A stretch of 14,077 bases of DNA. It comes from Planctomicrobium sp. GTDB lineage: Bacteria; Planctomycetota; Planctomycetia; Planctomycetales; Planctomycetaceae. The translations under genes and the position numbers were made by a program. The stretch covers positions 1 to 14,077 of the forward strand of contig JABJMI010000663.1 of assembly GCA_018659505.1 (NCBI GenBank). The letters are read 5' to 3'. Shown here one piece after another: positions 1-14,077 of the stretch; the first letter of the stretch is position 1, and every line of letters starts with the position of its first letter. Below the pieces are notes generated by a model. It was not told where the DNA came from, did no database searches, and saw only the letters and a list, made by a program, of their open reading frames with translations.

Positions 1-318
1 AGGTTTTGATTGTGTAAAGCCGAAAGGGAATCACAGAGTCTGAAGAATCATTCAAGCACATGCAAACCCTGTTGGCAGATAGAGTTTACAACTCTGTGAA
101 GTTTGATGTGTTCCGATGATGAGTTTAGTTTCCTTCAACACTCAGTCTTACAAATTGAGAAAAGAATCATCTCCGAGAAAGCTGAGATTGTGGACCGTCA
201 AGGCGTTGTTTCATCAACAATGGTATCTAAACTTATGAACAGATGAAGCGAGTGAAGCAGTTTGCTCACTCTACAGAAAATATCTTTCGCAGTATGTTTA
301 AGTATTGGAAGTATGAAG
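1..318. other. Upstream region with no recognised gene
   Basis: This stretch before the mrp start holds no ORF I can support. Two short plus-strand ORFs begin at 60 (19 codons) and 116 (40 codons, basic). Neither has a Shine-Dalgarno sequence or recognisable content. The mrp frame stays open back to a TTG at 262, but the extra residues do not resemble the family N-terminus. I found no convincing -35/-10 pair for mrp and no tRNA. The region presumably carries the mrp promoter. Confidence 0.5.
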
Positions 319-1386
319 ATGGTGACAGCGGCAGAAGTTCAGACAACAGTTGAAGCATTTGAAGATCCTCAGTTCGGGAAAAATCTGAAATCCCTGAAAA
401 TGCTCAAAGGAGTTTCACTGGACGGGTCGAGCGCGACTATTCAGATTGAGCTACCGACTCCTGCATACCCCAATCGACCTGCTCTTGAAGATGCGATTCA
501 ATCGAGCGTCCGTAGCGCTCATGCTGATGTTGATCAGGTGAATGTTCAATTCACAAGTGTCGTGAGAGGCAAAGACTCAGGAGCCAAAGTTGGCTTGAAG
601 GTCAAAAATGTGATCGCTGTCGGAAGTGGCAAAGGGGGAGTCGGGAAATCGACCGTCGCTGCGTCACTGGCTTATGGATTGAAACATTACGGAGCGACCG
701 TAGGTCTGATGGATGCAGACGTTTATGGTCCAAGCATTCCTCATTTGCTGGGCGCGACTGGACAGCCAGCGATGAAGCAAATCCAAACTCCAGATGGAAA
801 AACGATTGAACGCATCGTCCCAATCGAGGTCGACGGTATCAAATTGATGTCGATGGGCTTTATGGTCGGAGAAGATCAAGCAATCGTCTGGCGTGGACCG
901 ATGCTGCACAAAGCTCTCACCCAGTTTCTACAACAAACAGAATGGGGCGAGCTCGATTATCTGGTTGTCGACATGCCACCAGGAACGGGCGACGTCGCCC
1001 TGACGCTCTCCCAAATGGTTCAACTCGCAGGTGCTGTCGTAGTTTGCACTCCGCAGAAGGTTGCTCTCCTCGATGCCGGCAAAGCGATTTCGATGTTCAA
1101 GACGGTCAAGATTCCAATTCTCGGCATGGTCGAAAACATGACCGGCGAAATCTTTGGACAAGGCGGAGCCAAAAAGAAAGCTGAAGAAATGGGCGTTTCA
1201 TTCCTCGGTGAACTTCCTTCGATTGCGGAAGTTCGCGTGCGTGGAGATGAAGGGAAAATCTCAGCACTCGTCAATGAAGAGAATCCGGCTCAGCAACCAA
1301 TTCTGGACATCACCAGCAACGTCGCTATGGAGATCGCTAAAGAAATCCTCAAAAACCCAACGATGCCAACACTTGAAATTCTTTAG
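319..1386 (+). CDS. mrp: Mrp/ApbC (NBP35-like) P-loop ATPase lacking the CPxC motif
   Basis: Mrp/ApbC proteins are cytoplasmic ATPases that bind and hand on Fe-S clusters. The 355-residue product has an N-terminal MIP18/DUF59 domain (about residues 3-80) and a SIMIBI ATPase domain. The ATPase shows a deviant Walker A GKGGVGKST (104-112), MDADVYGPSIPHLLG after it (switch region, D132), and Walker B with VVDMPPGTGD (D218). The start is set at ATG 319 because GGAAG (307-311) lies 7 nt upstream and the protein then begins like other DUF59 domains. An in-frame ATG at 313 and a TTG at 262 are alternatives. Oddity: after VENM (271-274) the usual segment with CPxC is replaced by TGEIFG, and the only cysteine in the protein is C233. 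The ATPase fold is intact, so this is probably a functional lineage variant rather than a pseudogene, but Fe-S binding through CPxC is not possible. The family call is very secure; the role is less so. Confidence 0.93.
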   Translation: MVTAAEVQTTVEAFEDPQFGKNLKSLKMLKGVSLDGSSATIQIELPTPAYPNRPALEDAIQSSVRSAHADVDQVNVQFTSVVRGKDSGAKVGLKVKNVIAVGSGKGGVGKSTVAASLAYGLKHYGATVGLMDADVYGPSIPHLLGATGQPAMKQIQTPDGKTIERIVPIEVDGIKLMSMGFMVGEDQAIVWRGPMLHKALTQFLQQTEWGELDYLVVDMPPGTGDVALTLSQMVQLAGAVVVCTPQKVALLDAGKAISMFKTVKIPILGMVENMTGEIFGQGGAKKKAEEMGVSFLGELPSIAEVRVRGDEGKISALVNEENPAQQPILDITSNVAMEIAKEILKNPTMPTLEIL

Positions 1387-1440
1387 TTTCCGGTGAATGA
1401 GCGTACCGTAAGGCATCAGCATGTTTTTAATCTAGCAGTA

Positions 1441-1500
1441 CGTCGGACTTCCAAGTCCGACGGAACTCAGCGGTCGGACAAGGATGTCCATCCTACGACG
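1441..1500. repeat. Palindromic intergenic element, GTCGGAC type
   Basis: A perfect 10-bp inverted repeat, CGTCGGACTT / AAGTCCGACG, with a 2-nt centre lies at 1441-1462. It is followed at 1475-1500 by a second GTCGGACA stretch that can fold two exclusive ways: GGACA/TGTCC around 1476-1489, or AGGATG/CATCCT around 1481-1494. The outer ends are CGTCG and CGACG. The element lies just downstream of mrp and could stall or end transcription. It resembles dispersed REP-like elements I associate with planctomycete intergenic regions; copy number elsewhere is not visible here. Confidence 0.7.
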
Positions 1501-1553
1501 GCGCCTTATTTTCACGCCAATGCCTAAGTACACCGCCACGAGTTTCCTTGTAC

Positions 1554-1613
1554 AACGGCTAACCGCAAGCATCGAGTTCCATTGATAAACTCCGACGCCT
1601 TCAGCTAGCCGTT
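1554..1613. repeat. Inverted repeat element, AACGGCTA/TAGCCGTT type
   Basis: AACGGCTA (1554-1561) is matched by its exact reverse complement TAGCCGTT (1606-1613) across a 44-nt spacer, giving a compact element of about 60 bp. It lies just beyond the end of the convergent CDGSH gene. It differs in sequence from the GTCGGAC-type element 50 bp away, so two repeat families sit side by side in this gap. No ORF is present. Function is unknown; convergent transcription ends here, so a terminator or REP role is plausible. Confidence 0.55.
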
Positions 1614-1640
1614 AAACGGGTTCTTCTCAACAAATAGCGA

Positions 1641-1910
1641 TTATTGCAGACTTGTTGTGTCAGGCTCGCTCAGGCATTTGTGCTTTCCATCACAACGGGG
1701 GGCGTTCTCCGTAAGTTTGCACATGCACATCGGGATCGTCTGATTGGCTTCCGCTGTAAAGACAATCGGATTGAACCCACTTCCTTTATGCTGCCCATCA
1801 CAAAAGGGTTGATTAGAAGAGAGACCGCAAGTGCAGTAGGCGTACTTCTTGCCCTCTTCGAGTTCAACTTTTACAGGAGACGTTCCAGCGACTTTGGGGA
1901 GATCAGACAT
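1641..1910 (-). CDS. Small double-CDGSH iron-sulfur protein
   Basis: The 89-residue soluble protein carries two complete CDGSH [2Fe-2S] sites of the form CxCxxxxxxPxCDGxxH: CTCGLSSNQPFCDGQH in the first half and CMCKLTENAPRCDGKH in the second. Each supplies three cysteines and one histidine. Proteins of this family bind redox-active 2Fe-2S clusters. Bacterial members are thought to act in electron transfer or Fe-S/redox balance, but the exact role of this one is not known. ATG 1910 is chosen because the protein then starts directly before the first motif (MSDLPKVAG); an upstream in-frame start at 2000 would add 30 unconvincing residues and run into the rpsB terminator. The Shine-Dalgarno is weak. 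The gene lies 153 bp downstream of rpsB, beyond its terminator, so it is expressed from its own promoter or by readthrough. Confidence 0.88.
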   Translation of the reverse strand: MSDLPKVAGTSPVKVELEEGKKYAYCTCGLSSNQPFCDGQHKGSGFNPIVFTAEANQTIPMCMCKLTENAPRCDGKHKCLSEPDTTSLQ

Positions 1911-1980
1911 AGATGAAGTCCATCCGGGATGTGGGTGTGATGAAAGTGAAATTAATGCGCTAATAAGTTTACAGCTGAGA

Positions 1981-2020
1981 CCAAAAGAAAACCCTGTCAA
2001 ACATTCGCTTGACAGGGTTT
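1981..2020 (-). terminator. Intrinsic terminator of rpsB
   Basis: A perfect 12-bp stem, AAACCCTGTCAA / TTGACAGGGTTT (1989-2020), has an 8-nt loop. On the minus strand it is followed by a T-rich run ending in TTTTCTTTT. It sits 43 bp after the rpsB stop, so rpsB is probably transcribed alone and the CDGSH gene beyond is at least partly uncoupled. Confidence 0.88.
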
Positions 2021-2063
2021 GTTACTTCGAGAACCAAAATCATAAATTCAGACAAGACTGAAC

Positions 2064-2810
2064 TTATTGGACATTTGGAACTGCTTTAGGATCTTCAGCG
2101 TTACCGCCCTGCTCTTTTTTCTGCGGCAAGGTTGCTCGACCTTGTTTGATTGCATTCGCAAGGTAACCCATGATGATCCGGATCGAACGAATACTGTCAT
2201 CGTTACCAGGAATCGGTAAATCGACGGTATCTGGATCGGAATCAGTATCGATCAGAGCGACTGTTTTGATACCCAGAATTTTGCATTCGTGGATACAGTT
2301 GTGCTCTTTGTTTGGGTCGACGATTACGATCGCTTCTGGAAGGCGATTCATGTCCCGAATTCCACCCAAGTTGCGTTGAATCTTGTTCAACTCACGACGC
2401 AAACGTGACTGTTGTTTCTTGGAGTAAGTAGCCAGTTCGCCACTTTTGTCCAATGCTTCCAATTCTTCAAGTCGTTTGAGTCGACTGCGAACTGTTCGGA
2501 AGTTAGTGAGAGTTCCACCCAACCAACGCTCTGTACAGTATGGCATTCCGCATTCTTCAGCGACTTTGCGAACGATGTCGACTGCTTGTCGTTTGGTGCC
2601 AACGAAGAGAATCAAACTGCCCTGTGCAGAGACCTTGTAGAGGTATTTCTGGGCACGAACGAGACCGCGAATTGTCTCTTTCAGATCGATGATATGAATG
2701 TTGTTGCGCTTACCATAGATGTAAGGTCGCATTTTCGGGTTCCACTTACTGGTCTTGTGACCAAAGTGAACACCAGCATCAAGAATGTCTTTAACTACAA
2801 TTTCTGCCAC
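2064..2810 (-). CDS. rpsB: 30S ribosomal protein S2
   Basis: S2 binds the 30S subunit near the neck and helps recruit S1. The 248-residue product is a full-length S2. Near the start comes [17 protein letters not shown], then [43 protein letters not shown] and [32 protein letters not shown] in shorter recognisable blocks through the protein. The tail after about residue 225 is polar and lysine/glutamine-rich. The start is the GTG at 2810, which puts AEIVVKD directly after the initiator as is usual and has GGAG 9 nt upstream; extending to 2870 adds 20 residues unlike S2. The gene has its own promoter and leader upstream and a strong terminator downstream. tsf, the usual next gene, is absent. 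Confidence 0.97.
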
Positions 2811-2984
2811 GTCTATCTTCTCCAGACATGTGAGGTGACTTGTTTCAATCAACAAATCACTAGAAAACAATGTCAGACCAGTTACATCACCAGCCAGATC
2901 AAGAATTCGCTATATGCGGCGACAGAATTCCTACTGTACACCTAGTTACAAAGTGATGCCGAGACTTCAGCATCGTCATCAGAA
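2811..2984 (-). promoter_or_regulatory. Structured rpsB 5' leader
   Basis: If transcription starts about 7 nt after the -10 at 2991-2996, rpsB has a leader of about 174 nt with no ORF. It contains three foldable segments. The first is an 8-bp hairpin with a 4-nt loop at 2955-2974. The second is a pairing of two GAATTC sites at 2903-2908 and 2925-2930. The third is a 10-bp hairpin (one G-U pair, 6-nt loop) at 2835-2860, ending 11 nt before the Shine-Dalgarno. Bacterial rpsB is known to be autoregulated by S2 through its leader in some groups. That this leader does the same is inference. Confidence 0.45.
2820..2823 (-). promoter_or_regulatory. Shine-Dalgarno deciding the rpsB GTG start
   Basis: On the minus strand GGAG (within GGAGAAG) lies 9 nt before the GTG at 2810. 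No comparable site precedes the in-frame ATG at 2870. This fixes the S2 start and places translation initiation just after the hairpin at 2835-2860. Confidence 0.8.
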
Positions 2985-2990
2985 TGATGG

Positions 2991-3019
2991 ATAGTAATGA
3001 TTGTGAATGTAGTCGTCAA
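2991..3019 (-). promoter_or_regulatory. Candidate sigma70-type promoter for rpsB
   Basis: On the minus strand TTGACG (-35, 5 of 6 consensus) is followed after exactly 17 nt by TACTAT (-10, 4 of 6, with the key A and final T). It lies between the stop of the SMC-like gene (3075) and the rpsB start, pointing at rpsB. Confidence 0.55.
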
Positions 3020-3074
3020 ACGTGCTATTAACACACACTCCATCGACCATAACCATCTACACAGTAATAGCTTA

Positions 3075-6000
3075 CTACGCCGCCCGTAAACTTCGAGAGT
3101 TCCTTGCGTACTCAATCCAGTCTGTGACTTCAACCAAATCGGGAGTTTTCGCAGAGCGTAGTTGCCGTTGCCCCTTTGTAGAATGGACATAAGGCTTGAC
3201 CACAGAAAAGAGTTCATTCGGAGTCATCGCTGCGATTTTGTCAACATCTGTCAATTCACAGGCAACCAGAACCTGTGCATCATGCCCTCTCAACTCAGGA
3301 ATTCGGCAAACCAGGATTGCCTGTTGCTGCCATTCTTGAATGAGACTCTCAGTAAGCCGTCGAGTTTTCAGCCGAGAGCTCATCTCAACGGCATCGCGAT
3401 TCACCAAATCTGAAACTGTCATCACTCCAATTTTTTCAAATCGTGCAGCAGTCCTGGGACCAATGCTAGGAGCGTCAACAATGGCACTCTCCATATCGAG
3501 GTAGAATCGATACTCAGTTTTCTCAGAGGTCGACTCATCAACTTCATGAAGTCGGACTGTTCGCTGAGTCTCATTCGAACTCGATTCGACATTCGCTTGA
3601 GCCTGCGAAACTTTCGTGCCTCGCGAGGAATGCGAAGTTGGAACCTCGTGAGCAGCATGATGTCTCAATCGTTTCGAGCCATATTCTCTCGCAACTCGAT
3701 AAGATCGTGCTCGCTGACCACAAGCAATCCACTTTACAAAGTGTGATTTTGTTGGCCAGTTCGATTCGCCACTGAGCCAGCTGAACGAGTCGTATTCGCG
3801 TCCAACTTCTTGAAGTCGAGAAGCCCGAAAATGAAGATCATCGGCATCCGCTTCCGCTAACTCTGTAGGACTATAGACTCCACAAAGCACGAGTAATTGT
3901 GCATCCTTGCCAGTGAGATCAGGAATACAACAGAGCAAGCGTGCCTCTGCCTGCCAGTTTCGGAGAGTTGCAGCTGAGATCTGAAGACTTTCTAATGGAA
4001 TCTCGGTGTTCTCGGGATCAAGCTCGATCAAGTCAGAGACATTATGAACGCCAATGGCTCCGATTCGTCGTGCCATTTGTTCTCCCAGAGATGGCACAAG
4101 GGAGACCGCACTATTCGTCTGAATCCAAAAAGGATTATCGGGTTGAATTCGATCTAATGACGCTGAATTAAGTCGTCCGGCTTCCTCATTATTTTCATCA
4201 GTCGGTGACGACGATTGATGAGAAAGCGGAGTGATTCTGGTTGACTGGCTCTCTTCAAAGGTCTTCGCAAGTCGATTGTGCTGCGTTGTAGAACGCTGTG
4301 AGCCGGGAAGATTCTGTACCACGATGTCAGATTGCTCGAACAAATTTGCCAGATGTTCCTGGCAGGTCATGAAGATAATTTGATGATTGTCTGCACTGAA
4401 TTCGACAAGAGTTTCAATCGCAGCTGAGAGCCGATTTTCGTCGCTGTCTGCTAGGACTTCATCTAACACGAGAGGAAGATCAAATCCACGACGACGATAT
4501 TCACTCCACAGAGCAAGTCGAAAGCTAAGAGAGGCCTGTTCCAATGTTCCTCGGCTCAAAGCATGAACCGGGAGTTCGGCTCCTTGATCGCTGACGATAA
4601 GGAGCTCTTCCAATTGTGCATTGAATCGGAAGCATGTGTAGCGTCCCTGAGTCATTTTATTCAATAGAGTTGAAGCTTGCTCAACGACGGGTGATGCCGT
4701 TTCAACATTCATTTTGTCGCGAGTTCTAAGCAACACGGTTTGTAGAACCGCCAGAGAATGCCATTGTTCACGGGCGTCTGCGAGTTGCTGCTCGATAGCA
4801 CTATTTTCCAATTGCAACTTTTGAATCGAATCATCCATCGCGAATTGTTGCGGCAACTCTTTAGCTTCATTGAGTTCTTGTAGTGCTCGTGCCAGTTGCT
4901 CAAGGCTGTTCCACCACTGCCGTTGGAGTTGTAACTTACGTTCAAGGAGTTGCTTCTGAGCAACCGTATCTCCAGAACGAGCTTCTGTTTCGACGACTGT
5001 TCGGCTAGATGTGACGTAGTCGATTTCGGTTTTGGATGCTGTCTTGGGAATCGAAAGAGTTTTCAAGAATTGTTGATGCTCTTCACATTGACAGTACGCG
5101 GTTTCATGGCGTGTGCAGAATTGAAGCCTTTGTTCCGTTGGACGATTTTGCCCATGCAATATTTCATCACGCCGTAGTCTTAAACCTTGAATCTGCCGGG
5201 TCAATTCAACCTCGCAGCGATCAACTCCATCACGTTGAGAGAGCAATAACATTTGCTCGCTTGCCACTTGCTGGCGAGAGAGTTCCTGACAGAGCAACGC
5301 TATTTGTTGCTGAATTGAAGTTAGAGAACTTCCTAAATCACCTGCGACAGTCTGACAAAGACATTCTTTGCCACCCTGTTGTTGTTTCAATTCTTTAAGC
5401 AGACCTGCGAGCTGAACAGTTTGTGCTTCGATCGCAGCGATTGAAGCCCGCTGACGTTCGAACACAATTTCCTTCTCTGGAGTTTCGGTCCCAGTCAGTT
5501 CGGCGGTAGCGATTGACAGTTTGAAGCGAGAGTTTGCAAGGTCTCTTAAAACCTGCTGAGCGTGAGAAATCTGTCGATCAATCTCCGCGATTTCAGAGAT
5601 CCATTCTTGCGATTCTCCCTCGATAACCCTTTCGACTGCTTGCTCTTCGACGACAATTCTCTCGGTTCGCGACCAGAGTCGATCATTCACTTCCATCAGA
5701 TCAGCTTGAACTTGCTGAAGTTCGCTATGCAGCCAATCGGCTTCACTTCGAAGATGCTCAATTTTTTGTTCCAAGGACTGGACTTTAGAACACCAACTTG
5801 AATCACGCAGCTTCTGTTTCTTGAGACCTGATTTGATCTCAGAATCAATGTTTTGTTGCCGATGTTCAAGCGATTCGATGCTTGTTCGAGATGGTTGAGG
5901 ACCAAAAAGATCTTGGCGCTCTTGCTCCACAACATCAATCCGTTCCGCGATCCAGTTTACTTGCTTGCGTTCGGTTCTTAACTCAACACCATCATCCAAT

Positions 6001-6428
6001 GCAAAGCGAACCATCTCTTCAATCGAGTGTGCTTCCGGTCCACTGACGAAGAACAAGTTCTTAATGAAATCATGCTTCAGGCGGGACATTTGCTGCCGTA
6101 TTTCGGCACTCGCTTCTGGATCTCCAATTTGTGTTCGAATCGCAAGCGTGTCATGGTGACCGGGTCGCGAGTGACGAATAATTTCATAAACAGCAGGTCC
6201 AATTGCAACCTCAAGAGCGCCGCCAGGGTTGCCTCCTTTTAGCGGAGGCAGCAGGCGTAATCTCCGTGCCTGATCGAAATTGCAAAACATGCCTCTCAGG
6301 AACTGCAAAACAGTTGTTTTACCAGAACCATTCCTTCCGTATAGCACGTTCAAACCGGATGAGAGATGATCAATTTCAAGGTGAGAAAGAACACCAAAAC
6401 CATCAATCTTAATTGTACTCAATTGCAT
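3075..6428 (-). CDS. SMC/YhaN-like coiled-coil ATPase with tandem DUF4332 domains
   Basis: The 1117-residue protein is a split-head ATPase of the SbcC/Rad50/YhaN type joined to two helix-hairpin-helix-like domains. The N-terminal half-head (about 1-150) has FGVLSHLEIDHLSSGLNVLYG and Walker A GRNGSGKTT (31-39). Long helical, Gln/Glu-rich coiled coil runs from about 155 to 600. The second half-head (about 600-705) has the ALSRGTLEQ signature (623-631), Walker B LPLVLDEVLADSD (D656, E657) and IIFMTCQEHL. After a polar linker come two DUF4332 copies (about 776-910 and 985-1110). Each has a SLG/SIG hairpin, a GVxxVSDL stretch and W-QA-A-L----IP-L--DAQ-LV. Such ATPases clamp DNA and work with an Mre11-like nuclease in repair. 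The partner gene, 67 bp upstream on the same strand, is the degenerate phosphoesterase at 6496-7602, so the two likely form a complex. The start is ATG 6428, with a weak GGA 10 nt upstream. No classical CxxC zinc hook is seen; two CxC motifs (356-358, 446-448) lie near the coil apex. Confidence 0.9.
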   Translation of the reverse strand: MQLSTIKIDGFGVLSHLEIDHLSSGLNVLYGRNGSGKTTVLQFLRGMFCNFDQARRLRLLPPLKGGNPGGALEVAIGPAVYEIIRHSRPGHHDTLAIRTQIGDPEASAEIRQQMSRLKHDFIKNLFFVSGPEAHSIEEMVRFALDDGVELRTERKQVNWIAERIDVVEQERQDLFGPQPSRTSIESLEHRQQNIDSEIKSGLKKQKLRDSSWCSKVQSLEQKIEHLRSEADWLHSELQQVQADLMEVNDRLWSRTERIVVEEQAVERVIEGESQEWISEIAEIDRQISHAQQVLRDLANSRFKLSIATAELTGTETPEKEIVFERQRASIAAIEAQTVQLAGLLKELKQQQGGKECLCQTVAGDLGSSLTSIQQQIALLCQELSRQQVASEQMLLLSQRDGVDRCEVELTRQIQGLRLRRDEILHGQNRPTEQRLQFCTRHETAYCQCEEHQQFLKTLSIPKTASKTEIDYVTSSRTVVETEARSGDTVAQKQLLERKLQLQRQWWNSLEQLARALQELNEAKELPQQFAMDDSIQKLQLENSAIEQQLADAREQWHSLAVLQTVLLRTRDKMNVETASPVVEQASTLLNKMTQGRYTCFRFNAQLEELLIVSDQGAELPVHALSRGTLEQASLSFRLALWSEYRRRGFDLPLVLDEVLADSDENRLSAAIETLVEFSADNHQIIFMTCQEHLANLFEQSDIVVQNLPGSQRSTTQHNRLAKTFEESQSTRITPLSHQSSSPTDENNEEAGRLNSASLDRIQPDNPFWIQTNSAVSLVPSLGEQMARRIGAIGVHNVSDLIELDPENTEIPLESLQISAATLRNWQAEARLLCCIPDLTGKDAQLLVLCGVYSPTELAEADADDLHFRASRLQEVGREYDSFSWLSGESNWPTKSHFVKWIACGQRARSYRVAREYGSKRLRHHAAHEVPTSHSSRGTKVSQAQANVESSSNETQRTVRLHEVDESTSEKTEYRFYLDMESAIVDAPSIGPRTAARFEKIGVMTVSDLVNRDAVEMSSRLKTRRLTESLIQEWQQQAILVCRIPELRGHDAQVLVACELTDVDKIAAMTPNELFSVVKPYVHSTKGQRQLRSAKTPDLVEVTDWIEYARNSRSLRAA

Positions 6429-6495
6429 CAGTCGAGATTCCGAAAACAGAGATATCAGAGGAAATCAGTATTAATACGGTGAAGAAGCGACACTC

Positions 6496-7602
6496 TCAAA
6501 TACAGGCTTCGTTCATTAAATAAGGGAGACGTTGAGCGACAATTCTTCTTGAATTCTCAAATGAGGACGATTCAAATTCGAGAGCGTGGACATCCAGGTT
6601 TTCGTAGACTTCGTCAATTTGCATTGAAGAGAGTTCATCACAGGCAACTCGAAGTGCCGAGGACTCTCTACCAGAATATGATAAAGAAGCATGCTCAATC
6701 ACGATCTGCTTTGGCCACAGTGATGAATTTCGCTCAATCGCTTTTTGCAGTAATTTTCCTTGAAGTGATCGAAGCAAATCGTGCGTCAATTTCAGGTCGT
6801 CGATTGACTTGAGTTTTAAGAATATCGTCAATAGCGTGGGAACCGACTTCTGCCCTCGCGTTCGTTCAAGCTTCTCTAATTCAACATCTAATTGTTCTTG
6901 AATCGACGTAAAACTTTGACATTCGCTGACGATCAGTTTGGCACTTTCCCAGCAAACAACCTGTGATTGAATTGGAGAGTCTGTCACCCCAGTTTCTGGA
7001 GAAACTTCTACTAAAGTTCCCTCGAACGAATCGCATTCTTGAGGTGATTCAGGCTGCGGGAGGTGAACTTCGACAGTCCTTGGAGTCTGGTTTTCATGAG
7101 CAGAATAACTGACCGAAGTGACTTGTCCTCCCACTTCCATTAGTCGTAAATTGAAGCCAATTCGTGAATCATAAGCTTCCGAGGTCTCTGAAGTTTCCCA
7201 CTCGAACTCAACAGGAGGCTGATTCGCAGCCAGTCGAAAACCGATTGATTGATCACGAGTGATCACATTGACATTCTCGGGAAGATGAATTTCTGCTGGC
7301 CAATAGAATGTGTCTGTCGACTCAACGCAGACGACTTTAATGCCATGCTTTGCAAGTTGTTCGAATTCTTGTTGTAAGAACCAGTACGGTCTCGAACCAC
7401 CTTGCGGATCAGTAGGAGAACCCGTCAGTAAGACTAAGTCAACCTGTTCCGTAATTGCCGCAGCGAAGAGCTTTTCCGCTGCCTTAAACTTAGCGTTAAG
7501 AATTTGAGCCTGAATTTCTGCTGAAAAAGATGAAAGATCACCTTTCAAAGGATTATTCAGACGCAATTCTCCTACCTGAAGAATGCGCAATGCGCCCCCC
7601 AT
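6496..7602 (-). CDS. SbcD/YhaO-like phosphoesterase homologue with lost active-site residues
   Basis: This 368-residue protein follows the YhaO/SbcD/Mre11 pattern: LRILQVGELRLNNPL at the start, a helix, AITEQVDLVLLTGSPTDP (50-66), then LAKHGIKVVCVESTD (83-97), WPAEIHLPENVNVI, and later FEGTLVEVSPETG with a QVVCW strand, as in YhaO after its GHxH region. The metal ligands are replaced: DxH is E12-L-R14, GD is G61-S62, and GNHD is E94-S-T-D97. I see no GHxH motif. It is therefore probably catalytically inactive or works differently. About residues 215-368 would form the capping and ATPase-binding part. The gene lies 67 bp upstream of the SMC-like gene, as sbcD precedes sbcC, and is probably co-transcribed with it. 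ATG 7602 is chosen because GGAGG lies 8 nt upstream; ATG 7617 is possible. The frame is fully open, so this is not a decayed pseudogene. Homology is good by motif spacing, but function is unknown. Confidence 0.8.
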   Translation of the reverse strand: MGGALRILQVGELRLNNPLKGDLSSFSAEIQAQILNAKFKAAEKLFAAAITEQVDLVLLTGSPTDPQGGSRPYWFLQQEFEQLAKHGIKVVCVESTDTFYWPAEIHLPENVNVITRDQSIGFRLAANQPPVEFEWETSETSEAYDSRIGFNLRLMEVGGQVTSVSYSAHENQTPRTVEVHLPQPESPQECDSFEGTLVEVSPETGVTDSPIQSQVVCWESAKLIVSECQSFTSIQEQLDVELEKLERTRGQKSVPTLLTIFLKLKSIDDLKLTHDLLRSLQGKLLQKAIERNSSLWPKQIVIEHASLSYSGRESSALRVACDELSSMQIDEVYENLDVHALEFESSSFENSRRIVAQRLPYLMNEACI

Positions 7603-7610
7603 CGTCTCTG

Positions 7611-7615
7611 CCTCC
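7611..7615 (-). promoter_or_regulatory. Shine-Dalgarno favouring the ATG at 7602
   Basis: GGAGG on the minus strand is 8 nt before ATG 7602, an ideal spacing, and overlaps the second codon region of the alternative ATG at 7617. That alternative has GGGGA about 9 nt upstream, so both starts may be used, but the 7602 site is the stronger. Confidence 0.65.
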
Positions 7616-7617
7616 AT

Positions 7618-8143
7618 GCAATTTCCCCAACTTCAATCATTCATTATTTGAATTCCTGAAGCGAAAAAATCCTGATCTCTGGGTCAATATTTTACTGTTT
7701 GAGATTAAATTGGCTTCAATATCAAATTTCGCCAAAGTAAAAAATCTCAACAGACATTTGTACTCAATCACTTGCAGGTTGTTTGAGAACACCTTCGTTG
7801 AGTTGTCCGACAAATTTCAGAAGGTGAGGGCAAAACTATCAGAGAGTTGAAAATTTGACAAGACGAGTCTTATGCCGGAACTAGAGCGATATTAATGTAG
7901 TTTATGTGGAATCTCTGGAGATCTTTTCATCATGATCGCCAAAGAAAATTCGTATCTCTTCGAAACTGAAAATGATGATTACCAATCCTGAACAGTGCCC
8001 CGTGAACCATCGCATCCGTGGAGAGTCTCCAATATACTTCTGGAAATGTCTCAGAATCTGATGATGAATTGGTGAGTTTAACTTAATTCGAAATCATCGA
8101 TTCTGAAATTATCAAACAGTCTATTTACAGGAATTTCTGGCTC
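7618..8143. other. Divergent intergenic region between the phosphoesterase-like gene and purQ
   Basis: This AT-rich gap must hold promoters for both divergent transcription units. Seen directly: TTGACA at 7855-7860 on the plus strand without a good -10 at 17 nt, a TATTAA at 7890-7895, and two small dyads, AAGACGAGTCTT (7860-7871) and TGGAGAGTCTCCA (8019-8031), which share GAGTCT. A 19-codon ORF at 7932-7991 (plus) has GGAG about 11 nt upstream but nothing recognisable. I find no gene or RNA I can support. Confidence 0.45.
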
Positions 8144-8947
8144 ATGGCCGCTCCCAAAGTCTGCGTACTTCGTGCTCCTGGCACCAATTGTGATCGCGAA
8201 ACAGCATTTACATTTGATTCTGTCGGTGCAGAAGCGGAGCGTGTTCACCTGTTTCGTCTGCTTGAAAACCCCAAAATGCTTCAGGACTATCAAGTTCTCT
8301 GCATTCCAGGGGGATTCAGTTACGGAGACGACGTGGGAGCAGGAGTGGTTTTCGCTAGCCAGCTGAAATCACAACTCGCTGAAATGATCGGGGAGTTTCT
8401 GAACAAGGAGACACTCGTACTCGGGATCTGCAATGGCTTTCAAGTCTTATTAAAATCAGGCATTCTTCCCGGAGGGGCAGCGAACTGGAGCGATGGAGAG
8501 ACAGCCCCTCAACAATCTACACTCACTTGGAACGCAAATGGTCGCTACACCGACCTCTGGGTGAATCTCAAGAATACATCCTCGAAGAATGTGTTCCTGA
8601 AAGGGATCGATACGCTCGAGTCACCAATTGCTCACGCAGAGGGACGTCTGGTTGTTCAGAATGAAGAGACCCTCAAAACCTGGGAAGCAAACGGGCAAGT
8701 CGCATTGCGATATTGTGACGCAAATGGAAACACCGGTGAGGAACTCCTGCCTTATCCTGAAAACCCTAATGGCTCGCTGCAAAACATCGCAGGACTCGGC
8801 GATCCAACTGGTCGCGTCTTAGGATTGATGCCGCATCCGGAGAGATTTATCTTCGCGACACAACACCCTCAGTGGACACGAAAGAATCTCAAAGGCGAAG
8901 GAGCCGGCATACAAATTTTCCGCAACGCCATCGAGTTCTTCGCTTAA
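8144..8947 (+). CDS. purQ: Phosphoribosylformylglycinamidine synthase glutaminase subunit PurQ
   Basis: PurQ is a class I glutamine amidotransferase that supplies ammonia to PurL for FGAR to FGAM conversion in purine synthesis, in the cytoplasm. The 267-residue product shows VLRAPGTNCDRET near the start, the oxyanion strand LCIPGGFSYGDDVGAG (52-67), the nucleophile in LGICNGFQVL (C96), SPIAHAEGR (160-168), and the triad His and Glu in MPHPERF (H231, E233). It is longer than the roughly 225-residue Bacillus type and resembles the glutaminase domain of large PurL, with GEGAGIQIF close to the end. ATG 8144 has AGGA 11 nt upstream. It stands alone: purS and purL are not adjacent. A weak terminator overlaps its stop codon. 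The call is secure. Confidence 0.96.
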   Translation: MAAPKVCVLRAPGTNCDRETAFTFDSVGAEAERVHLFRLLENPKMLQDYQVLCIPGGFSYGDDVGAGVVFASQLKSQLAEMIGEFLNKETLVLGICNGFQVLLKSGILPGGAANWSDGETAPQQSTLTWNANGRYTDLWVNLKNTSSKNVFLKGIDTLESPIAHAEGRLVVQNEETLKTWEANGQVALRYCDANGNTGEELLPYPENPNGSLQNIAGLGDPTGRVLGLMPHPERFIFATQHPQWTRKNLKGEGAGIQIFRNAIEFFA

Positions 8948-8957
8948 GCGAATTTTT
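8939..8957 (+). terminator. Weak intrinsic terminator overlapping the purQ stop
   Basis: TTCGC (8939-8943) pairs with GCGAA (8948-8952) around a TTAA loop and is followed by TTTTT (8953-8957). The stop codon TAA (8945-8947) lies in the loop. The stem is only 5 bp, so termination strength is doubtful. Confidence 0.45.
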
Positions 8958-9046
8958 GGGACCAGTCATTCACTTAGCAGTAACAGGGACGAAATGAAGT
9001 CGGTTCGAAGTGAATTCATGGTCATCAACTGAACTGATTTTTTAGA

Positions 9047-9083
9047 ACGCGGATACACGCTGATGATGCGGATTTCCACGGAT
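9047..9083. repeat. Short-period element built on GCGGAT units
   Basis: Four imperfect units follow one another at 9-10 nt spacing: ACGCGGAT (9047), ACGCTGAT (9057), ATGCGGAT (9066) and CACGGAT (9077), then an A-run. The stretch lies in the gap after purQ with no ORF. It resembles a dispersed intergenic sequence I recall from planctomycete and other environmental genomes. Function is unknown. Confidence 0.5.
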
Positions 9084-9170
9084 AAAAAAGACTGGTGTTC
9101 GACTTTTACGGATCGATGACGATTCGTTTCATCGACTCACTCCTATGATGAGCTTTTTGAGATCAACATT

Positions 9171-9197
9171 TTCTCTGTGTTCTCGGCGTCCTCTGTG
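9171..9197. repeat. Short-period element built on 9-nt CTCTGTG units
   Basis: Three 9-nt units lie in exact register: TTCTCTGTG (9171), TTCTCGGCG (9180) and TCCTCTGTG (9189), followed by a partial GCTCTTC. It is in the same gap as the GCGGAT element, about 90 bp away. The middle unit is most diverged. Function is unknown. Confidence 0.5.
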
Positions 9198-9270
9198 GCT
9201 CTTCAATAATTTTCAGTCAATACGCGACTTCTGACAACTTCAGTCGGATGATCTATTACAAATTAAGCAA

Positions 9271-10446
9271 CTAAAACAGTTCCCCCAAGCTCGCATCCAG
9301 GTTTTGGGGGAGCGGATCTTGAAGATGATCAGCTCGCCAGGTGCGCCATTTTTGAATCGCTTTCTTGCGGATTTCTTCAGACCGAAATTTCGCTGTGCTA
9401 CCGATGTAGAGATAGCCTCTCTTTGGTCTTAGATCGTGGAAACCATAATCTTGATGTGATTGATCTGTGATATAGACAAGAGCAGCGAGTGCGGCATCCC
9501 GAACTTGAACATCCATCTCCGAACTGCGACGGCTGCCGAAGAGTTGTTGTTCTTCATCAAGCAGTTCTTCCAATTCTTCGATGACTTCTTCTTCTCCGTA
9601 CAAAGCCAAGTAGAATATTGAATTCACAAGATAGATTGCCGAGGAATGCAATCGCTGCCGACCTTCTATAATTTCTCGAGCGACATCGATTGCAGCGTCT
9701 AACTCGAAGGTAGCTGCGTCGCTGAGTCTTTGTACCGCAGAGGAGTTTCGACTTTTGCTGATCCACTCTGAAATCAATGACTTCAAGACGTCACTACTCC
9801 GGGATCGTGTGGCAGCGTCTCGAAACTTCCCATCACTGAGCAGCATATTGACCACAGAGGTCGCTGCTCCACTTGGTTGATTCTCAGGATGACTCGCCAA
9901 AAAAATCAGAGCGGCAATCGCACCAGGTTCAAGTTCAATTTGGCGACGTTGATGAGCAAATGCCTGAAGGTCTGCACAACGCTTTTCGAATTGCGACTGC
10001 CAACCAGAATGATTCAACGTCAACATCAAGTCGGTTTCGCTATTTAAGATCAGAACATAAAGTTCTCGCGAGTCTTCACCATCTCCTAAGAGTTGATGGA
10101 ACGCCTCCCAACCCGGAGCAAGTTCTTCAGGAACCAACCACGGATTGCGTCTCAATTGATGGTGTTGATCAGCGAAGGCGGCGCGTTGCAAGAGTTTGAG
10201 CAATCGCTGTGAACGATAACGAATCTCTGGATTATCAGAAGCGGCGCCTGCTGTGATTGCCTGATAGGAGCCATACCCCAGGTTCAGCAACTTTTCTTCT
10301 GCACGCGATCGAGTCGAGAATCTAGAAGCACCTAACTCTTGAACAAGTCTTTCTGATTCGCTCGCAGCTTGTGCAGAACAATTGAAGAGGCAAAGCAAGA
10401 TTAGACTCAGCAAACCAGAACAGATGAGTTGCCGTTTGCGAGACAT
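9271..10446 (-). CDS. Exported HEAT-like repeat protein
   Basis: The 391-residue product begins with a signal peptide, MSRKRQ followed by a leucine-rich core and cleavage near AQA|ASE (residue 27). A first helical repeat follows: LVQELGASRFSTRSRAEEKLLNLG in two blocks, then DNPEIRYRSQRLLKLL (71-86). This is the damage-insensitive helix-pair pattern seen at the N-terminus of many exported planctomycete proteins. The C-terminal part has MDVQVRDAALAALVYITDQ and EEIRKKAIQKWRTWR, again HEAT-like. No catalytic motif is visible, and I do not know its function; a periplasmic protein-binding role is a guess. ATG 10446 gives a normal signal peptide; an upstream GTG at 10479 would bury it. No Shine-Dalgarno precedes either start, and a candidate promoter places the transcript start near 10479. 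It is separated from the ABC operon behind it by a repeat element. Confidence 0.75.
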   Translation of the reverse strand: MSRKRQLICSGLLSLILLCLFNCSAQAASESERLVQELGASRFSTRSRAEEKLLNLGYGSYQAITAGAASDNPEIRYRSQRLLKLLQRAAFADQHHQLRRNPWLVPEELAPGWEAFHQLLGDGEDSRELYVLILNSETDLMLTLNHSGWQSQFEKRCADLQAFAHQRRQIELEPGAIAALIFLASHPENQPSGAATSVVNMLLSDGKFRDAATRSRSSDVLKSLISEWISKSRNSSAVQRLSDAATFELDAAIDVAREIIEGRQRLHSSAIYLVNSIFYLALYGEEEVIEELEELLDEEQQLFGSRRSSEMDVQVRDAALAALVYITDQSHQDYGFHDLRPKRGYLYIGSTAKFRSEEIRKKAIQKWRTWRADHLQDPLPQNLDASLGELF

Positions 10447-10485
10447 CAAAGCTACGAAAGTAATTGCTAACTTAAACACTCAACT

Positions 10486-10514
10486 ATCATCGAAGTTGAC
10501 TCGAACACTGGCAA
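10486..10514 (-). promoter_or_regulatory. Candidate promoter for the HEAT-like gene
   Basis: On the minus strand TTGCCA (-35, 5 of 6) is followed after 17 nt by GATGAT (-10, 4 of 6). The transcript would begin near 10479 with a short leader of about 33 nt, which supports the start at 10446 over the GTG at 10479. Confidence 0.35.
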
Positions 10515-10584
10515 CCCCAACAGGTTAGATTTTGCGAGACGTGTGTCATTTCAAGTAGTAGAGTGGGGGAGCAATCCGTTAATG

Positions 10585-10697
10585 AAATGGTGGGTTACGT
10601 ACTCGATTTACCCGAGGAGGAACAGTTAATTTTGATTTACAACTCATTGCGTAACCCACCGTTTACGTGGATCGACGTACTCCACCCACCCTACACT
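10585..10697. repeat. GTGGGTTACG-type inverted repeat element
   Basis: AAATGGTGGGTTACG (10585-10599) pairs with CGTAACCCACCGTTT (10650-10664) over 15 bp with one mismatch, around a 50-nt spacer. CCACCCACCCTAC (10683-10695) follows, repeating the CCCACC theme. The element lies between the stop of the permease gene (10705) and the promoter of the HEAT-like gene. It could fold as a long-armed hairpin in the 3' end of the ABC operon transcript. Sequences of this GTGGGTTA/TAACCCAC kind are dispersed in many bacterial genomes. Confidence 0.6.
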
Positions 10698-10704
10698 GAT
10701 TTGT

Positions 10705-13104
10705 TCAAACCTCAGTCGCGAGCACATTTTTCGTGTACGAGGAGACGGGATTCGTATCTGCTTGTTGATCTGCTTTATAGAGCCAATACAGCAACACTGC
10801 GGAGATAGCTGCACAGACAACAAGAAACATCGGTTGATATGCCATGGTCGGCTCCTTGCCTGTCGATTCGGTGACCTGAATCGCATAACGGGCGATTCCA
10901 TCCTTGAGTGTCACAATATCCACCCTCGTTGCCAGAACCTGAGTTCCATTGAAAATCAAGTGGAAGGTGATACACGGAATGAGACTGCGACTTCGAACAG
11001 CCAAAAGCCCCAGCACTAACCCTAATAGAGAAGCATTGAATTGCTGTTTGGGAATCATATGGATGACGCCGAACAGAATTGCGGTAATCACAATCGGCAG
11101 CCACTTATGTCGTGAACGTTGAAACCCGCTAAGTATGAAACCACGGAATGCCAGTTCTTCACAAACAGCCGGAGCAATGGCGAAGGTCGCAAACGAGAGC
11201 CACAACGGGACCGCATCTGTTGCCATCGCTTTCATCAATTGTTCGCCGCCCGCAGGCATCGGTGGGAAGAATGGATCAAGCCAGGAAAGAAGTGTTAGTG
11301 CCAATGGTTGCAATGTGAGTGGCAAAATGATTGCAGCAGCCATCATTTTCCAATCAGGGAGCCTAAGCTTCAAACTTCGAAGAGGTTTGGTCGTTAGCAA
11401 GACAGCCATCATGACAGGTGGAAAGCCGACGGTTGCAATTAAGTAGATCAACTGCACGACAACCATATCACTTGCATCACTCAAGAACGACGGATTCTTC
11501 TGAATCGAGGTTAAGAAGATGAATTGCAATAATGCGATGAGGACAAAACAGACTCCGCCTTCCATGAAACTGGGAGTCGATTCTTTATCTCGGAATAAAT
11601 GTTTGAACCACAGTCCCAGTTCAAAACGCTCAGCTTCTCGAAAGAGAATTCCTTCGCTTTGAAACTGTTCAATCGCCCACCAGAGCGCCAGGGCACTATA
11701 AGCAAAACTGGTCACCAACACCGGCACAACAAAGGTCGAGGCAGCGATGGCGGTCGCTCCTCCAAGAAGTAGCGATTTCAACAATAATGCCGGACCAACA
11801 ACGGGTAAGATACTGTAGTAGGGTGTCAATTCCACCGCTGGATTCAGGCAGAACATTGTTAATCCCATTGTCACCATTAGCAGCGGTGTCAAATAGTATT
11901 GACCTTCTTTACTACTCTTCGCGAACATCGCGAATGATAACGACATAGCACTGAACAACGCAGAAAGCGGGATTGCCAACAGCACGACCCACATCAGAGA
12001 GAGGAGAGGCGGAAAGGAGAGATCCCCCATGCCTGAGGCTCCTCCACCGGAGAGTGCGCCCAACATATTCTGACCAGTAATTCCCATACTCGTCAAATTC
12101 AACAATGCTGTCGTAATGCTGAACAGCATGACAGTCAGGAACTTGCCCAGGACAATCTCTGTTCGTGTTGCGGGAGAGATAAGGAGCGTTTCCATCGTGC
12201 CACGCTCTTTCTCACCGGCTCCTAGATCAATCGCTGGGTAGAACGCCCCAGTCACCGACATAATAACGAGCAACGCTGGAAAAATTTTGCTCCAGACGTT
12301 CGCTGCGATTTCATCCGCTTCTGCAAGATCGACTGTGGTCGATTGAACAGGATCGGGTAATGAACGTGGTAGCGACGCTTGCTCAAGACGTTTCTCAAGC
12401 AGTAACTCTTCCCATTGACTCAAAGCCTGCCGGACGAGCAGGTAAGCAGTTTCTGACTTATCATCGGCACTATTGTGCAAAATGATGGGGCTTGGCGGAT
12501 TATCGAATTCCGATCGTTTGAAGTCCCCTCGCGACATGCGTTCGTTCATTTGGTCATATTGATCCCGGAATCCATTCGGGAATAACACAAGCACTTGCGC
12601 TGGCGCAACTGAAAACCAGCTGGTCGCCTGCTGTCGGAGTTCTTTCTCTTCCTTCAGTAGTTCCTTTTTCTCTGAATCAGATTTCACTCCACGGTCAAGG
12701 CGATCTTGAACGGTAGCGAGACGATCCAAAGTAGGGCGTTTTTCATCAATCAGTTTCAGGAACTTACGAAATTCTACCTTGTCTTTTTCAACTAATTCAG
12801 GATTCTCAAGAGAATCGGCAGCGTCTGTAATGACACGCAGCTTATCTGCGTCGGTCGAATGGTTAAAATAAACCGGAACGAACCGGTGTTCCTGAATCAA
12901 TTCTGGCGAGGGAATTTCATCGACTCCGACGACCACCACATTCCGCATTTGTTCTGCAAATGCGACTGTCATTTGAGCCATACCGATCCCGAGTGCCGGG
13001 TACAACAGCAACGGCAAGACAGCGACCATGAACAGAGTTCGACGGTCCCTCAATTGATCACGAACTTCTCTTAAGAAGATAAGTTTGATGTTCTTCCAGT
13101 TCAT
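10705..13104 (-). CDS. ABC-2 permease (NatB-like) fused to a CPBP intramembrane protease
   Basis: The 799-residue membrane protein pairs with the ATPase encoded just upstream. The N-terminal part is an ABC-2 exporter permease of the NatB/YhaP type. It has an amphipathic start ([16 protein letters not shown]), TM1 about 24-44, a long exterior loop (about 45-268) with a charged coiled-coil-prone part (104-160), then a cluster of membrane segments (270-480) with the [14 protein letters not shown] coupling motif (298-311). The C-terminal part (about 545-770) is a CPBP/CAAX-type protease domain: EELAFR (E649, E650, R654), FGVIH (H682) and HLIFN (H715, N719), all putative active-site residues present. 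CPBP domains are glutamic-type intramembrane proteases, often tied to bacteriocin or peptide maturation. The substrate here is unknown; NatAB of Bacillus exports sodium. The start overlaps the natA stop by ATGA, implying translational coupling. Confidence 0.88.
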
Positions 13105-13880
13105 ACTGCTGTCCCCATCCCTGATGCCTTGAGGCTCAACTGTGGCTCTCGTTCGTGAATTAACTGGAAGAAGACTTCTTCAATATCCGGTTGATCGTAT
13201 TTAGATATCAGTTCGGAAACAGTACCTGTGTCGAGAATCTGACCTTTGTGAATGATGGCAACTCGGTCACAGAGTTTTTCGACTTCCCGCATAATATGAG
13301 TGGAAAAAATAATGCACTTGCCTATGTCTCGCAGAGCAGAGACTGCTTCCAAAACCGCACGAGCGACTAACACATCTAAGCCCGAAGTAGGTTCATCAAA
13401 GATCAAAACAGGAGGGTCGTGAATGATTGTTCGGGCGATAGAGACCTTCTGTTTCATCCCGGTCGACATCTTCAATCCAAGTACATCTCGAATTTCATTC
13501 ATCTGTAAAGTCTCGAAGATCTCTTCAATCCGCGCTTGCAGCGGTTCCTCTTCAATCCCGTAAAGCCGACCGTAATACTCGACCATTTCGCGGGCAGTCA
13601 TGCGATCGTAAATCCCGGTATTGCAGGACATAAAACCGATATTCGCCCGGACAGATTCTGGAAAGCGTGCGACATCATAGCCAGCGACCAGTGCCTGCCC
13701 CGCTGTCGGCTTGAGAACTGTACTTAAAATACGCAAGCAGGTCGTTTTCCCTGCTCCGTTTGGTCCCAACAGACCAAAGATTTCGCCGGGGTTCACCTCG
13801 AAGGAAACATTGTCGACCGCTGCGACCGCTCCTCGCTTCAGATCGGAGAACTCCTTTGTCAGATCTTGAACCTTGATCAT
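13101..13880 (-). CDS. natA: ABC exporter ATPase, NatA-like
   Basis: This 259-residue ATP-binding subunit energises the permease encoded immediately downstream. It has Walker [10 protein letters not shown] (39-47), signature STGMKQK (139-145), Walker B VLIFDEP (D162, E163) followed by TSGLD, and the switch histidine in IIFSTH (H195). Where most ABC proteins have a Q-loop glutamine it has [16 protein letters not shown], which is usual for the NatA group (STTGLYDR-like). The C-terminus ends with IEEVFFQLI, as in these ATPases. ATG 13880 is chosen because homologues start with MI-V--LTK; a GTG two codons earlier (13886) is possible. No Shine-Dalgarno is seen before either, and a 16-bp tandem duplication occupies that place. 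The stop overlaps the next start by 4 nt, so the two genes form an operon. Family is secure, the transported substrate is not; natA is used in the family sense. Confidence 0.9.
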
Positions 13881-13890
13881 GCGCACATCG

Positions 13891-13943
13891 CTATTGATTG
13901 AATTGACTATTGATTGAATTGAGACTGATATTTCTATTCAATC
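13891..13943. repeat. Tandem 16-bp duplication before natA with an inverted partial copy
   Basis: CTATTGATTGAATTGA occurs twice head to tail with no spacer and no mismatch (13891-13906, 13907-13922). An inverted 8-bp part, ATTCAATC, follows at 13936-13943 and can pair with GATTGAAT in either copy. The repeat begins 10 bp before the natA ATG, where a Shine-Dalgarno would be expected. It may be an operator, a leader switch or a slippage product. Confidence 0.6.
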
Positions 13944-14077
13944 CTATCTTCATGCCTTGTGAAGGAAAGGAGGAATCTTCAGTATTTCATACACTCCAAA
14001 ACTGAAGCAGGACGAAACCGATTGGGCTGCGATTCAAATTCTGCTGTTTCCCAAAGAGTCAATCACTTGAGACCAGC

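Follow-up and report, generated by a model that had tools for sequence, protein, structure and literature searches.

A predicted nuclease-dead Mre11-type subunit paired with a Rad50-like ATPase in Planctomicrobium and related Planctomycetia

A two-gene locus

We analysed a stretch of 14,077 nucleotides of Planctomicrobium sp. DNA (assembly GCA_018659505.1, contig JABJMI010000663.1, positions 1 to 14,077), hereafter the window, in which a small gene resembling those of Mre11, SbcD and YhaO is followed on the same strand by the gene of a Rad50-like ATPase. Our reading is that the product of the small gene is probably a nuclease-dead Mre11 subunit (YhaO-type) within an Mre11-Rad50-like complex, that the next gene encodes its ATPase, and that this complex grips, senses or tethers DNA without cutting it. 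YhaO-YhaN of Bacillus is the corresponding pair of the SbcCD or Mre11-Rad50 type. The features of the locus are:

6496..7602, minus strand: predicted nuclease-dead Mre11/SbcD (YhaO-type) subunit, 368 codons and a stop (open reading frame, alignment, AlphaFold model, Foldseek)
7611..7615, minus strand: Shine-Dalgarno-like GGAGG, 8 bases 5′ of ATG 7602
3075..6428, minus strand: Rad50/YhaN-type ATPase, 1117 codons and a stop, with matches of the SMC (structural maintenance of chromosomes)/Rad50 type, Walker A, signature and Walker B
3075..4133, minus strand: ATPase C-terminus, starting near residue 766 (boundary approximate), with two DUF4332/helix-hairpin-helix-like modules

The open reading frame (ORF) of the small subunit runs from ATG 7602 to a stop codon ending at 6496, and the ATPase gene begins 67 bases past that stop. 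Another in-frame ATG lies upstream at 7617, but since the N-terminus M-G-G/S-A-L is kept in all nine rows of the homologue alignment A1 (described below), the start at 7602 is favoured. An earlier reading made from the sequence only had chosen the same start, with an intact 368-codon frame and an ideal Shine-Dalgarno, and is borne out here. Taken alone, the small subunit matched no Pfam or NCBIfam model at E ≤ 1 in single-sequence scans. In database entries these copies are labelled hypothetical, one of them putative metallophosphoesterase YhaO, so that a nuclease may be assumed where none exists.

Predicted fold and lost metal ligands

The AlphaFold model of the small subunit (pLDDT, predicted local distance difference test, 83.4; pTM, predicted template modelling score, 0.78) was compared with the PDB by Foldseek, which returned 39 chains at E ≤ 0.001, every one of them Mre11 or SbcD. 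The alignments to all 39 extend to residue 301 or further, over a calcineurin-like phosphoesterase domain and a capping domain. The motif alignment to YhaO/SbcD proposed by the sequence-only reading was thus no chance fit, and the Mre11 fold on which that reading depended is present in the model. Sequence kinship to known members did not appear in single-sequence Pfam scans, and a narrow profile made from A1 gave chance matches only in the PDB; we therefore built a broader profile (A2, 27 rows), which matched 1ii7 at E 1.5e-8 and SbcD 4lty at E 1.4e-7. Judged by the model and by these profile matches, the small subunit is a member of the Mre11/SbcD/YhaO superfamily by fold and descent. Two of the 27 family rows also match Pfam DNA_pol_E_B weakly (best E 0.0039). 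Helices modelled with modest confidence at residues 315-326, 329-333 and 345-365 may stand for the C-terminal helix-loop-helix by which Mre11 binds the coiled coil of Rad50. Conservation in the near family is 0.82 for the N-terminal strand, 0.77 for helix 71-86, 0.65 for residues 315-341 and 0.41-0.53 for residues 119-304.

The dinuclear metal ligands (DxH, GD, GNHD, H and GHxH) correspond to D8, H10, D49, N84, H85, H173, H206 and H208 in Pyrococcus Mre11 numbering, and the window copy has none of the eight. The former motifs, placed by A1 with coordinates counted from ATG 7602, are:

7561..7569, minus strand: former motif I, E12-L13-R14 instead of DxH
7417..7422, minus strand: former motif II, G61-S62 instead of GD
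7312..7323, minus strand: former motif III, E94-S95-T96-D97 instead of GNHD

All three replacements had been read from the sequence before, together with the lack of GHxH across the 368-codon protein, and we confirmed each of them. T96 occupies the place of the catalytic His of GNHD; H85 of Mre11 is described as essential for activity (PMC4996933). The region expected to carry motifs IV and V has shrunk as well: a conserved Gln column stands 84 residues beyond the motif III Asp column, as against 118-138 residues in the 47 copies with six to eight ligands. Among the nine rows of A1 the former metal-site residues vary (position 14 R/C/S/L, 62 S/A/K/R, 95 S/P/A/T, 97 D/N/V), and position 12 is E in eight of the nine.

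Ligand loss is old and graded

Searching some 5.8 billion proteins gave nine matches at E ≤ 0.001, the window's own protein among them, and A1 consists of this protein and the eight homologues; a second, alignment-based search added one further protein. None of these eight homologues, one of which (P0004) comes from Thalassoglobus polymorphus of the class Planctomycetia, has the full ligand set. Because near homologues also fail to keep the ligands, the loss is not recent, and the notion that this copy alone had lately lost them is not upheld.

The A1 profile matches 118 of the 170 genomes of the window's family in GTDB (Genome Taxonomy Database), and A2 matches 306 of 397 genomes class-wide, where intact and dead copies were both found. 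Eighty places from the family listing, 40 from 42 genomes mostly of other families of the class, and the window gave 121 YhaO-like ORFs. All eight ligand positions are kept in 44 of them, six or seven in 3, two to five in 16, and none or one in 58, counts that describe a hand-picked sample and are not to be read as frequencies. Position-by-position counts are sensitive to how the sequences are aligned, and two copies scored at 4/8 in a poorly aligned stretch (L056, L057) may be over-counted.

Nine copies from nine other families of the class (L206-L214), which group together on the partner tree with support 96, mostly keep D8 (8/9), H10 (8/9), D49 (6/9) and H208 (7/9), whereas H173 is kept in 3/9 and N84, H85 and H206 in none (0/9 each). 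Following the two-metal scheme of Mre11, the catalytic His and the second metal site would have been lost first. The copies L206-L213, in which the first metal site is largely preserved (DxH, GD and the last H), are candidate one-metal, inactive proteins. A copy in family f15 (L203, genome G314) keeps two of eight ligands beside a partner with Walker A and stands outside the three main tree groups, possibly as a separate loss.

Selection

The ratio of non-synonymous to synonymous substitution (dN/dS) was estimated by the method of Nei and Gojobori with Jukes-Cantor correction in 21 hand-picked pairs, 20 of dead copies and one of intact copies, some sequences being used in two pairs. The ORFs were taken from stop to stop and include some untranslated upstream codons, which should raise the ratio, not lower it. 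It was 0.061-0.254 in 19 of the 20 dead pairs and 0.178 in the intact pair. The earlier claim that selection has kept the protein is thus supported, as purifying selection, among the relatives, while the window's own pair was saturated and gave no value.

The partner ATPase

The window's ATPase retains its Walker A, signature and Walker B motifs, and no CxxC zinc hook was found in it. Its DUF4332 (PF14229) match reaches 115.5 bits, versus a curated cut-off of 23.2, in two stretches; the two modules share 34% identity over 98 residues, and DUF4332 overlaps helix-hairpin-helix models. The ATPase also has structural matches to Lamassu. Replacement of its switch-loop His by Cys was considered as a mark of dead-nuclease complexes and was dropped: among 32 scorable partners of copies that keep the ligands, 10 also have the Cys.

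In one relative, the partner of a dead YhaO (L076:3886-7254, minus strand) has degenerate Walker A, signature and Walker B motifs and a retained DUF4332-like C-terminus, and both subunits of this pair look catalytically dead.

Evolution of the operon

On the partner tree, whose backbone is poorly resolved, the dead-subunit operons fall into a 34-row group (support 100), the 26-row DUF4332 group to which the window belongs (support 85) and the intermediate group; the three partners of the 34-row group that were inspected lack DUF4332 at their ends. To compare single with repeated ligand loss, 19 long, partial or near-identical rows were removed from 105, leaving 86 (58 degenerate and 28 intact). 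At least two changes of ligand state on starred branches are required by the free quick tree built from these 86 partners, and the starred set of 23 rows that holds the window includes two intact rows. However, a tree holding the 58 degenerate rows together had a likelihood 16.1 above that of the free quick tree (p-AU, the p-value of the approximately unbiased test, 0.773). A single origin of the ligand loss is compatible with the data, although it is not proved.

Within the window's genus, G157, G158 and G161 each carry two distinct dead operons, one of the window type (L045, L041, L047) and one of another type (L183, L181, L182). In G160 the window type is accompanied by pieces of the other type at the ends of contigs; only the other type was found in G159 (82% complete), and only the window type in G000 (75% complete). 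A search of these six genomes with an intact YhaO query found dead copies only. With the SbcD model TIGR00619, scores in the genus did not exceed 24.0 bits, versus 52.6-63.0 in G014, G083, G089 and G056, which have intact copies, but its cut-off of 77.65 was passed by none of the 12 genomes concerned, and it is no sharp test for YhaO. That cut-off is passed by 18 of 135 genomes of the family, and in four genomes (G118, G120, G130, G131) a match above it coexists with dead copies (L070, L067, L076, L108). Because dead copies and a nuclease coexist elsewhere, replacement of the nuclease is proposed for this one genus alone.

In G157, G158, G160 and G161, ORFs that match AddB and AddA in size and carry PDDEXK_1, called by these two features, are separated by a few kb; the incomplete window genome yielded none. 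Elsewhere in the class, AddB-like and AddA-like genes are followed by an intact YhaO in the order addBA-yhaO-yhaN (L191:952-7028 and L205:1177-6926). Clustering of the neighbours of pseudo operons gave no common pathway beyond a purQ-like neighbour in the window's genus. A large gene clustered at L181-L183 is non-adjacent, and its one copy tested, that of L181, has no Pfam match.

A history that we put forward tentatively, as somewhat short of probable, is that the Planctomycetia hold an old non-nucleolytic branch of Mre11-Rad50. Its nuclease would have been shut down stepwise, perhaps once, with the catalytic His and the second-metal ligands going before the first-metal site; the operon would then have been duplicated, the ATPase of the window's branch bearing its own tandem DNA-binding modules, and the nuclease would have been wholly replaced in the window's genus.

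Neighbouring genes

The other Pfam-matched genes of the window are mostly core genes: Mrp-type ParA, CDGSH, ribosomal protein S2, GATase_5 (purQ-like), and an ABC-2 exporter with its ATPase. The gene for ribosomal protein S2 is usually followed by tsf; here (1641-2870) it is followed on the same strand by the CDGSH iron-sulfur gene. At 10705-13104, the ABC-2 exporter permease is fused with a CAAX-type (Rce1-like) protease domain.

Interpretation

The sequence-only reading had proposed a pseudo-nuclease serving as scaffold, DNA-end sensor or ATPase regulator, or an enzyme with a new active site. The pseudo-nuclease is supported by the Mre11 fold of the model and by the ligands missing in near homologues too. 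As the partner keeps its ATPase motifs and the old metal-site residues vary among the A1 rows, a non-catalytic role appears better supported than a new active site. We favour an ATP-operated clamp or end sensor. The two genes would share one transcript, and the dead subunit would dimerise, its C-terminal helices holding a pair of ATPase heads. The heads would shut around double-stranded DNA when ATP binds and free it on hydrolysis, with extra contacts supplied by the helix-hairpin-helix-like modules. The DNA, probably ends or stalled forks, would be held or sensed uncut, and cutting would be left to other enzymes, for example AddAB. Even without metals, an Mre11 subunit could still dimerise, turn a surface towards the DNA and bind the coiled coil of Rad50 with its C-terminal helices. 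For SbcCD, the nuclease-deficient H84Q mutant is reported to have ATPase activity lowered by about 15%, and the Mre11 subunit is described as required for recognising DNA ends (PMC6265447).

The subunit fold with its capping domain, the two-gene order and the Rad50-type coiled-coil ATPase are those of SbcCD and Mre11-Rad50, whereas the lost metal ligands and catalytic His, the shortened motif IV-V region, the DUF4332 modules and the window partner without CxxC are not. The B-subunits of eukaryotic DNA polymerases likewise have a calcineurin-like fold, catalytically inactive and retained as a regulatory subunit (PMC4996933), but their partner is a polymerase and not a Rad50-like ATPase.

Several points weigh against our reading. 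The top 39 Foldseek matches have modest TM-scores (0.39-0.51, normalised on the query), block pLDDT falls to 54-76 over residues 301-368, where the ATPase would be bound, and both dimer and ATPase contacts of the dead subunit are inferred only. DNA binding by DUF4332 is read from its overlap with helix-hairpin-helix models, the Cys that the window partner has for the switch-loop His is non-specific, and the dN/dS evidence comes from relatives. Nor is the ATPase preserved everywhere, its motifs being gone from the L076 sequence as assembled, in one genome.

The pair could instead be a condensin-like chromosome tether of the SMC type, no longer engaged with DNA ends, in which the dead Mre11 would bridge the ATPase heads as a kleisin does, which we think unlikely. 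An anti-phage or other defence system with its effector elsewhere is more doubtful still. The partner does resemble Lamassu LmuB and AriA-type ATPases in its SMC/Rad50-like heads, with structural matches to Lamassu and weak PADLOC matches to AriA (36.8 bits), mad3 (30.5) and LmuB (22.3). However, the partners' matches are weak and scattered, those of the ATPase in the window fall chiefly within its N-terminal P-loop region, the window's neighbours are core genes and the pair occurs widely across the family. The small subunit, a dead Mre11, matched no PADLOC family in the three copies tested (Lamassu nuclease models were searched via PADLOC only), and one known PADLOC system for both subunits was rejected on that ground.

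That the Mre11 scaffold bears a new active site is a little less plausible again. R71, H86, R116, E156 and E199, conserved in all nine A1 rows, could serve such a site, as could the retained Glu12, but positions 14, 62, 95 and 97 vary freely, and the (nearly) invariant columns of 27 diverse rows (L15, L83, R6, A37, A41, G61, L76, I88 and Q183) offer no candidate acid or His. That the gene is a decaying relic on its way to a pseudogene is hard to credit: the former catalytic positions do change fast and one relative has lost its ATPase motifs as well, but the low dN/dS values and uninterrupted frames of 366-500 codons in many genera speak against it.

We found no description of a widely kept Mre11-Rad50-type operon that has lost catalysis in the literature covered, which was partial, most subscription journals and bioRxiv preprints being outside it. 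The parts are already known, and what appears to be new is the catalytic loss in such an operon. Whether the nuclease of Mre11 can be separated from DNA-end sensing and Rad50 regulation is usually probed with point mutants; here there is apparently a natural experiment, in which a complex of the same parts, under selection, seems unable to cut by known chemistry. The family offers it as a graded series, from copies with all ligands through those with mostly the first-metal site to those with none, and to the L076 pair with its degenerate ATPase.
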